The notes beneath the pieces are model-generated. The model ran no database searches. It had not been told where the DNA came from and was given only the letters and a program-made list of their open reading frames with translations. A DNA stretch of 64,000 nucleotides, taken from assembly GCA_003133325.1 (NCBI GenBank), contig PKXA01000024.1, positions 62,001-126,000 on the forward strand. Direction: 5' to 3'. Shown piece after piece: positions 23,893 to 25,940 of this stretch. A program made the position numbers and the translations under genes. This DNA comes from Acidimicrobiaceae bacterium (GTDB lineage Bacteria > Actinomycetota > Acidimicrobiia > Acidimicrobiales > RAAP-2). Positions within the stretch are counted from its first letter, which is position 1. The number at the start of each line of letters is the position of its first letter.

Positions 23893-24234
23893 ATGGACCT
23901 GACCGTTGAGATTGCCGAGAAGCGAATCGATGACGTCTTGGTGGAGACGGTGACGGGCGAACGTGATGTGGCCACTGCTCCGGAATTGCGAGAACGACTG
24001 GTGGCCCAAGAAGCAGACGGAGTGTTGCCGACCGTTGTCGACCTCACCGGGGTGTCGTTCATCGACCCCACCGACCTGGGCATACTGGGCACGGCGTACC
24101 GGCGACAGCAAGACGCAGGTGGGTGTCTCCGGCCGGCGGTAAGCGAGCCACGGATCCTCAATGTCCCGGAGACCACTGATTTGTCGAAGGTGTTCTCTGG
24201 CTTCGCCCCCGCTGGCGAGCCGGTGCGGGGATGA
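23893..24234 (+). CDS. STAS-domain anti-anti-sigma factor-like protein
   Basis: 113 residues with STAS topology: strand/helix pattern VLVETVTGERDVATAPELRE, then VVDLTGVSFIDPTDLGILG, then a C-terminal part ending VPETTDLSKVFSG. SpoIIAA/RsbV relatives bind the anti-sigma kinase when unphosphorylated. In them the phosphoserine sits in D-S-S-G; here the same place reads D58-P-T-D61, so only a threonine is available and the glycine is lost. AAAGGAA before ATG 23893 is a good ribosome binding site. It overlaps the next gene by ATGA. Confidence 0.85.
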   Translation: MDLTVEIAEKRIDDVLVETVTGERDVATAPELRERLVAQEADGVLPTVVDLTGVSFIDPTDLGILGTAYRRQQDAGGCLRPAVSEPRILNVPETTDLSKVFSGFAPAGEPVRG

Positions 24235-24629
24235 GCGATGTTGTCGAACTGACCATCCCGGTCCGATCTGACCTTTTGGTACTGGCGAGGCTCACCGCCG
24301 CCGCCCTGGCGTCGCGGGCCGATTTCGGCATCGAGGACATTGAAGATCTGCGACTTGTGGTGGAGGAACTCTGTCTCTCGGTAGTTGGAAACGAGACCGA
24401 CGGCACCATTCATCTTCAATACACTCGGGAAGATGGCTTGATCACCGTCGGGTGCTCATTGTCCCGAGAGGGCGGTTCCGATGGACGAACCGATGGACGA
24501 GCCGATGGTGAGGCCAATGCCATGTCGTTGCGCATCATCGAAGCTCTGGTCGACGAATATGGCGAGAACATGGTGGCCGACCGGCGGCAGGCGTGGATCC
24601 GCAAGCGCAGGAGCAAGGTTGCTTCTTGA
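24231..24629 (+). CDS. Anti-sigma factor-like ATPase domain protein (divergent RsbW/SpoIIAB)
   Basis: 132 residues. The N-terminus VELTIPVRSDLLVLARLTAA and the helix IEDIEDLRLVVEELCLSVVG match RsbW-type GHKL ATPases, and the end MSLRIIEALVDEYGENMV matches their last helix. The N-box asparagine is not in its usual place (EELCLSVV) and the usual D-x-G-x-G box is replaced by a short Asp/Gly repeat (GSDGRTDGRADGE). It may bind the sigma factor without being an active kinase. Overlaps STAS by ATGA and the sigma gene by TGATG, so the three are one coupled operon. Confidence 0.8.
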   Translation: MSDVVELTIPVRSDLLVLARLTAAALASRADFGIEDIEDLRLVVEELCLSVVGNETDGTIHLQYTREDGLITVGCSLSREGGSDGRTDGRADGEANAMSLRIIEALVDEYGENMVADRRQAWIRKRRSKVAS

Positions 24630-25375
24630 TGAGCGGCGAAGCGGGGAATCCGAATACGTCACGCGAGTTGTGGGTGAAGTTCGCTGCTGCTCGTGATCCA
24701 TCATTACGCGATCAGCTGGTCACCGAAAACCTCGGGTTGGCTCGGCGGCTTGCCCATCGATTCACCCAACGCGGGCAGCCCTATGACGACCTGGCTCAGG
24801 TTGCTTCCATCGCATTGATCAAGGCGGTCGACCGTTATGATCCCGAACGGAATGTGAAGTTCAGCACGTTCGCCACCGGGACGATCATCGGTGAACTGAA
24901 ACGGCACTTCCGTGATCGTGGGTGGTCAGTACGAGCTCCGAGGCGCATTCAAGAGCTCTACCTCGAGCTCGGGGCCACCATCGAGTCACTTGGTCACGGA
25001 CTGGGTCGTTCTCCCATGGTGTCGGAGTTGGCCAAGGCCACCGGGGCTTCGGAAGAGGAAATCGTGGAGGCCATCGAGGCAGGCCAGGGATATCGGTCAG
25101 CGTCACTCGACGCTCCGGACGCTGCCGGCGCGACATTGGGAGACAGCTTGGCCACCGAGGATGCTGCCATCACATTGGTAGATGAACGGTCGGTACTTGA
25201 GCCCGCCCTCGCCTCCCTGCCGGCCCGGAATCGCGTGATCATGAGGCTCCGGTTCATCGATGGTCTCTCCCAGTGCGACATAGCTTCCCAGGTCGGTATC
25301 AGCCAAATGCACGTGTCCCGGCTATTGGCTACCAGCCTCTCCCAGTTGCGTGAGGCATTTACCGCCGATCTGTGA
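24629..25375 (+). CDS. RNA polymerase sigma factor, SigB/SigF/WhiG-like group 3
   Basis: 248 residues from ATG 24629. Region 2: LVTENLGLARRLAHRF, YDDLAQVASIALIKAVDRYD and FSTFATGTIIGELKRHFRDR; region 3: SVRAPRRIQELYLELGATIE and MVSELAKATGASEEEIVEAI; region 4: RNRVIMRLRFIDGLSQCDIA and GISQMHVSRLLATSLSQLRE. This is the layout of SigB/SigF stress sigma factors. The preceding STAS and anti-sigma-like genes form its partner-switching control. A SigB-type promoter is visible in front of the nearby csbD-like gene (26170-26194). Confidence 0.94.
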   Translation: MSGEAGNPNTSRELWVKFAAARDPSLRDQLVTENLGLARRLAHRFTQRGQPYDDLAQVASIALIKAVDRYDPERNVKFSTFATGTIIGELKRHFRDRGWSVRAPRRIQELYLELGATIESLGHGLGRSPMVSELAKATGASEEEIVEAIEAGQGYRSASLDAPDAAGATLGDSLATEDAAITLVDERSVLEPALASLPARNRVIMRLRFIDGLSQCDIASQVGISQMHVSRLLATSLSQLREAFTADL

Positions 25376-25448
25376 CCAGTTTGATGTGTGGCGGGATCTT
25401 CCGGCGCTGCCACTCGGCCGAGGTGTGCCGGGCCGGGTGGTTGAGGCC

Positions 25449-25940
25449 TCAGATCTTCAGTTCGCACCAGACCGACTTACCTCTGTGTAGCCTCACGCGG
25501 GTCGTTCCCCAGGCATCGGCCACCCCCTCCAATATGGCTATGCCTCTCCCGCCCTCGGCGGTCAGCTCACGATATTCGCGACGAGGTGTTCGCTGATGCG
25601 CCCTGTCCACGACGGCGATACGGAGGTGGCGCCGGGTTGCGGTGATAGTGATCGAATCCGGCCCCCCGCCATGGAGCAGGCCATTGGTCACCAACTCGGT
25701 GGCAACAAGGCTGGCATCGGGTTCCATTGCGGTGAGATCCCACTCGAACAGCACGCGGCGGACGAACGAGCGAGCGACAGACCCGCTCGACGGGTCGGCG
25801 GGAAGGGGAGTGGTGCGTCGGCTGCCTGTGAGCCTCGCGACGAACCCTTCCCACATCGGCAATGGAGCGCCAGGCCATTTGGCTCTCCGATTTCCGTTGG
25901 ACGGGAGCTTCCGCATGGCGACTTCGTTCGTCTTGAACAT
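25449..25940 (-). CDS. ATP-binding protein, HATPase_c_2 (RsbW-like) type
   Basis: 163 residues if read from ATG 25940; ATG 25916 and ATG 25856 are alternatives. The core is FVRRVLFEWDLTAMEPDASL then VATELVTNGLLHGGGPDSIT (N-box E-L-V-T-N intact), LRIAVVDRAHQRTP and ELTAEGGRGIAILEGVADAW (G-box). Such single-domain GHKL proteins are anti-sigma kinases or regulators in actinobacteria. Unlike the neighbour at 24231 it keeps the key asparagine and glycines. It follows the csbD-like gene by 5 bp and faces the sigma factor gene tail to tail. Confidence 0.82.
   Translation of the reverse strand: MFKTNEVAMRKLPSNGNRRAKWPGAPLPMWEGFVARLTGSRRTTPLPADPSSGSVARSFVRRVLFEWDLTAMEPDASLVATELVTNGLLHGGGPDSITITATRRHLRIAVVDRAHQRTPRREYRELTAEGGRGIAILEGVADAWGTTRVRLHRGKSVWCELKI

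Follow-up and report, generated by a model that had tools for sequence, protein, structure and literature searches.

Three closely packed, overlapping genes on the forward strand (23893-25375), encoding in order a STAS protein, a GHKL protein and a SigB/F/G-type sigma factor, are best explained as a partner-switching operon of the actinobacterial SigF type, with a kinase-dead anti-sigma protein and a STAS gene recently freed of constraint, and with SigF probably controlled by another STAS protein encoded on contig C23; we put the probability of this reading at about 0.6. The genes lie in the window, the 64,000-nt stretch of DNA analyzed here (genome G000, contig C127, positions 62001-126000). 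The host is a soil actinobacterium with a 4.05-Mb genome, and its nearest named relatives are metagenome-assembled genomes of Acidimicrobiaceae/Acidimicrobiales. The motif losses described below and their family-wide scope are direct observations, as are the selection regimes and the finding that the C23 module is present and conserved. An initial annotation had treated altered residues in the STAS and kinase-like proteins as one modified switch; this merged two unrelated losses, an old one in the GHKL protein and a recent one in the STAS protein.

The set of related loci comprises the best 80 of 102 relatives, includes both congeners and overlaps an earlier set of 29 other loci. Three alignments were made: the window with 23 of those 29 loci, the window with 56 of the 80 GHKL sequences (57 in total), and the window with 39 of the 52 STAS sequences. 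Within the genus three genomes were compared, the window's own, G001 and G004; the operon is absent from two further genomes of the genus, which are 87% and 64% complete. Pairwise rate tests drew on 49 three-gene loci, the window counted, with pairs restricted to sigma identity >0.85 and mean dS <1.5.

Coordinates of the operon, its altered motifs and the neighboring convergent gene (positions in the window).
Feature	Position	Strand	Remarks
Operon STAS protein, anti-anti-sigma type	23893..24234	+	113 aa; P59 for acceptor Ser, D61 for Ala/Gly
D-P-T-D codons (D58-P59-T60-D61)	24064..24075	+	acceptor position is P59
ATGA, in which STAS stop and anti-sigma start share 4 nt	24231..24234	+	
Predicted anti-sigma pseudokinase: GHKL fold, kinase motifs lacking	24231..24629	+	132 aa
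E46-L-C-L-S50, N-box position	24366..24380	+	Glu invariant in aligned set; Asn in 0/80 loci (best 80 of 102)
DG-repeat loop replacing G1/ATP lid	24471..24512	+	includes 12-bp tandem duplication 24478-24501
SigB/SigF/SigG-type sigma factor	24629..25375	+	248 aa; start overlaps anti-sigma stop by 1 nt
HATPase_c_2 protein, convergent, candidate STAS kinase	25449..25940	-	N-box ELVTNG and EGGRG; no D-x-G-x-G

The sigma factor operon and its anti-sigma protein

In a profile search the sigma factor, of the stress type, scores 251.7 bits against TIGR02980 (cut-off 234.35), and it is the one sigma factor of the genome above that cut-off. Among the best 80 of 102 related loci, a sigma gene lies downstream in 76 and a STAS gene nearby in 52; since this gene order recurs, the operon is not a chance arrangement. 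An ATGA-type 4-nt overlap is possible in 37 of the 49 related loci where a STAS gene lies upstream. STAS, GHKL, sigma is also the order of RsbV-RsbW-SigB and SpoIIAA-SpoIIAB-SigF in Bacillus subtilis. The arrangement varies in some relatives (L112, L136, L107), with the STAS gene after the sigma gene or after the GHKL gene, and L107 has two GHKL/STAS sets. A search of the window for the SigF-like promoter pattern GTTT-N14-17-GGGTA found no exact match, which says little about autoregulation.

The GHKL protein falls below the Pfam HATPase_c_2 cut-off (24.9 bits against 27.4), and its AlphaFold model has a pLDDT of 87.8, with best fold matches to RsbW, SpoIIAB and Mycobacterium tuberculosis UsfX (UsfX-RsfB, 8ih8) at Z 15-17.5 and 1.3-2.8 Å. 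The initial annotation was right that the N-box Asn is missing and that a DG repeat stands in for the D-x-G-x-G loop. None of the best 80 of 102 related loci has the Asn (Ser, Ala, Thr, Gly, Leu and others are found there instead), and the Glu four places N-terminal to it is retained across them. The place of D-x-G-x-G is occupied by G81-GSDGRTDGRADGE (24471-24512), a loop that is disordered in the model (residues 86-91, pLDDT <50); its DG repeat is in part the 12-bp tandem duplication, which is absent from both congeners. It could be supposed that the catalytic residues lie elsewhere in the fold. The N-box alignment is, however, unambiguous, and a D-x-G-x-G pattern search gave three matches: one near the G1 place, in L123, which itself lacks the N-box Asn, so that at most one of the best 80 of 102 loci has the motif there; one in a loop past the N-box, in L116; and one near the C-terminus, within ALVDDHGRG, in L084.

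No variation is seen at R20, D39, L40, L42 and E46 across the 57 aligned sequences, and at least 90% of them have R41. R20, D39, R41 and E46 align with RsbW R23, D42, K44 and E49, the residues described as hydrogen-bonding RsbV in the crystal structure (Arg23, Asp42, Lys44 and Glu49; PMC7340262). In three congener pairs the gene has a dN/dS of 0.13-0.20, which indicates purifying selection. Judged from these alignments, the predicted STAS/sigma docking surface is kept while the ATP motifs are lost, and the loss of the kinase motifs is old and shared across related loci. With RsbW and SpoIIAB the protein has in common the GHKL fold and the docking Arg, Asp and Glu, and it lacks their N-box Asn and G1 D-x-G-x-G; with the RsbW1 type of kinase-dead anti-SigF it shares both a place beside a SigF-type sigma gene and the loss of kinase motifs. 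It is predicted to be a dedicated kinase-dead anti-sigma factor. UsfX, which as aligned also lacks the N-box Asn (DEVCTRLI), is a further likeness, in fold as well (PDB 8ih8, 8jzt). Between the window and G004 the dS of the anti-sigma gene is low (0.053, vs. 0.11 for STAS and 0.17 for sigma), which might reflect recombination or extra constraint. UsfX binds nucleotide, and this would weaken any claim that such a protein cannot bind ATP, leaving untouched the claim that it is not a kinase.

Probable loss of constraint on the operon STAS gene

The product of 23893-24234 belongs to the STAS family, with 33.6 bits against the Pfam STAS profile (cut-off 22.6); its TIGR00377 score, 43.4, is under that cut-off of 53.45. 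A phosphoacceptor Ser after the Asp is lacking: the D-P-T-D reported by the initial annotation is indeed present, at D58-P59-T60-D61. The acceptor Ser56 of RsbV is three residues past Tyr53 (PMC7340262), and that of SypA, also Ser56, is three past Phe53, with Ser57 described as merely assisting (PMC10120452). The corresponding places in the window STAS are taken by F56 and P59, and RsbV Ser56 aligns with P59, not T60. T60 was considered as a normal acceptor and set aside, as it aligns one place past the acceptor position. The acceptor Ser is present in all 52 STAS proteins of the related loci (best 80 of 102), as DST in 51 and as DSA in the congener G001 (L079); the other congener, G004, has an intact DSTA. 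The window holds the sole loss of the acceptor among the STAS genes compared.

In the three congener pairs, whole-gene dN/dS for STAS is 1.26, 1.52 and 1.21, against 0.27-0.31 for sigma (Fisher p 0.0004-0.004), and 0.87, 1.27 and 1.08 for the STAS domain alone. Outside the genus it is 0.01-0.30 with a median of 0.16 (94 pairs), that is, purifying selection. A three-taxon codon maximum likelihood estimate gives omega 1.57, not significantly different from 1 (p 0.10). At 40 conserved columns the window departs in 9, G001 in 14 (mostly other columns) and G004 in 4; the window changes include I94T and G96D, the latter common to the three congeners. The AlphaFold model is poor (pLDDT 59.5), a value that stands without a congener STAS as control. 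The simplest reading is a recent loss of STAS constraint within the genus, and the operon STAS is most likely losing function; loss is favored over new function because the rate in the genus is indistinguishable from neutral.

Several points count against decay or qualify it. The reading frame is open and free of indels in all three congeners; this was not accepted as proof of selection, the probability of no stop codon under random placement being ~0.24. Three loci outside the genus (L112, L136 and L126) have 9-10 of the conserved columns changed and keep the Ser. The rates come from a sample of three congeners, and with DSTA intact in G004 the relaxation may not be uniform among them. An omega above 1, though non-significant, is also compatible with adaptive change. 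Finally, the sigma gene is faster within the genus (dN/dS 0.21-0.26, vs. at most 0.16 in all 94 outside pairs), so the whole module, and not STAS alone, may be relaxing there. The window and G001, the two genomes with an apparently decaying STAS, have a common upstream context: they share sequence upstream of ~23780, and G004 diverges ~115 bp before the STAS start (L002, L003).

An unlinked STAS module and the candidate kinases

Contig C23 of the same genome encodes a canonical STAS protein of 129 aa with the motif DSTG (L073:6139-10513), divergent from the gene for a 1271-aa hybrid protein with PAS, GAF, histidine kinase, receiver, PAS, SpoIIE phosphatase and HATPase_c_2 domains. Both are well conserved in the two congeners (94 and 91% identity for the STAS protein, 93 and 90% for its partner), and the STAS gene has a dN/dS of 0.21-0.23. 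Among 23 genomes of the window's family it occurs in the three congeners only; it was not found in the remainder of the 23, where all matches were to the operon STAS. As functional antagonist of the anti-sigma protein the C23 STAS is a good candidate, and the operon STAS is probably drifting freely because another STAS copy elsewhere does its job.

A kinase for STAS must be sought outside the operon: self-phosphorylation within it is very unlikely, as had been proposed, given the missing motifs and the tested precedent of RsbW1 and RsbW2 in Mycobacterium smegmatis. Of 38 genomes from other families, 32 have a canonical RsbW-type kinase (the search covered 40 genomes, of which the other two belong to the window's family and have none); among 61 genomes from the window's own family there is one, by a weak match. 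At nine other-family loci (L164-L171, L177) there is a separate STAS-GHKL pair whose GHKL protein has an EACTN box and D-x-G-x-G. The convergent 25449-25940 gene had been put forward as the true kinase on the strength of an intact ATP site. Its N-box (ELVTNGLLH) and a G2-like EGGRG are present; the G1 motif is not, its place reading V-V-D-R-A-H-Q, so that judged by motif the ATP site is less than complete. Between this gene and the sigma gene G004 and G001 (L002, L003) have a few hundred bases that the window lacks (~25440-25449).

The 25449-25940 protein may be a STAS kinase in the window's family, as far as its motifs and distribution tell; that it phosphorylates this operon's STAS, as RsbW2 does RsfB, we regard as rather unlikely. 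The gene adjoins the operon in all three congeners under purifying selection (dN/dS 0.28-0.36), and N-box GHKL genes are present in the examined flanks of 20 of 52 STAS-bearing and 1 of 28 STAS-less loci (best 80 of 102; Fisher p 4.5e-4, an overstatement as the loci are related by descent). The near absence of a canonical kinase from the family also means that a substitute is needed. On the other side are the missing D-x-G-x-G, the convergent orientation, by which the gene is not co-transcribed with the operon, and the differing place and strand of such neighbors among loci. Without an acceptor Ser in the window STAS, moreover, a kinase role there may be moot. Of the two outcomes proposed for switching by Ser phosphorylation, loss or replacement, loss fits better. 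Replacement, in which the STAS protein would still function although its Ser is no longer phosphorylated, either as a constitutive antagonist or under another input such as phosphorylation of T60, seems doubtful, and more so than a kinase role for the neighbor. It would account for the open frame and for the retention of E23, D25, F56 and T60, which by motif reading match interface or assisting positions of SypA and RsbV (PMC10120452), and the non-phosphorylatable M. smegmatis RsfB S63A is described as still binding RsbW1 (PMC7693655). It fits poorly with a near-neutral rate confined to the window's genus, with nine altered conserved columns, I94T and G96D among them, with the decay of G001 by different substitutions that spare the Ser, and with the presence of a second, normal STAS on C23.

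Positive selection reshaping the STAS surface for a new partner is the least probable of these, and we consider it very unlikely: the point estimates of omega exceed 1 (1.57; 1.21-1.52), but without significance, the domain-only values are 0.87-1.27, and conserved core and glycine positions are among those changed. A more speculative variant of the preferred reading, of recent loss of constraint with control passed to the C23 STAS, is that the operon STAS persists as a coding leader, its frame kept only so that the ATGA overlap delivers ribosomes to the anti-sigma start, with the sigma factor handed to the C23 STAS and hybrid and the genus caught mid-change (G004 intact, two genomes decaying by different routes); this, too, we would hold only tentatively, as an unlikely one.

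Comparison with known systems and significance

For the preferred reading we infer the following steps of binding, phosphorylation and take-over, the binding of the C23 STAS to the anti-sigma protein included. The GHKL protein would bind SigF and hold it off; STAS in its non-phosphorylated form would dock on the conserved Arg/Asp/Glu surface and so displace SigF; and a separate GHKL kinase would have to supply the phosphate that inactivates STAS. Elsewhere in the order that kinase would be part of a canonical STAS-kinase pair encoded away from the operon. In the window's family, where the canonical kinase is almost lacking, the STAS gene sits in the sigma operon, often with a different N-box GHKL gene nearby that may serve instead. 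In the window's genus the operon STAS would be decaying, with the acceptor Ser changed to Pro in the window, and control of SigF has probably passed to the DSTG-bearing C23 STAS and its divergent HK-REC-PAS-SpoIIE-HATPase protein.

The closest parallel is the M. smegmatis SigF system. There, RsbW1 is described as binding SigF without phosphorylating; RsbW2, which carries N, G1 and G2 motifs, does not bind SigF and acts as the sole kinase of RsfB Ser63; and RsfB made non-phosphorylatable (S63A) keeps its hold on RsbW1 (PMC7693655). Here, likewise, a SigF-type sigma factor is co-encoded with a GHKL anti-sigma protein that, from its sequence, lacks kinase motifs; the unlinked STAS-kinase pair, by which another GHKL protein phosphorylates STAS, has its counterpart in sequence in other families of the order. 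Unlike M. smegmatis, the window has its STAS gene inside the sigma operon and without the acceptor Ser, and an RsbW2-like kinase is almost missing from its family. The B. subtilis RsbV-RsbW-SigB and SpoIIAA-SpoIIAB-SigF systems are alike in gene order, fold and docking residues, but RsbW and SpoIIAB are themselves kinases, whereas the window's GHKL protein has lost the kinase motifs and its STAS protein carries Pro at the acceptor place. M. tuberculosis Rv1364c (3ke6) is a sensor-PP2C-GHKL-STAS protein that resembles the C23 module with its SpoIIE and HATPase_c_2 domains and separate STAS; the C23 module differs in its additional hybrid histidine kinase and receiver, and in having STAS as a divergent gene. 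Streptomyces UshX was set aside as a kinase-dead precedent, the text available from PMC8346170 being silent on kinase motifs. Among the literature matches listed, nothing was on point for decay of an operon anti-anti-sigma gene, and those for such a system in Acidimicrobiia concerned other organisms only. A kinase-dead anti-SigF with an external kinase is thus of a known kind; what is added is the rearrangement at family level and the apparent decay of the operon STAS at genus level.

Partner-switching systems are commonly pictured as three fixed components. Within one order there are here three arrangements: a pseudokinase with a distant STAS-kinase pair; STAS in the sigma operon with almost no canonical kinase; and, in one genus, a STAS that appears to be decaying. 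An odd active site in a single genome is accordingly not to be taken for a new mechanism until congeners have been checked. Should the C23 STAS indeed have taken over, these genomes would form a testable natural series of a sigma factor changing its upstream controller, with the surface of the anti-sigma protein untouched.
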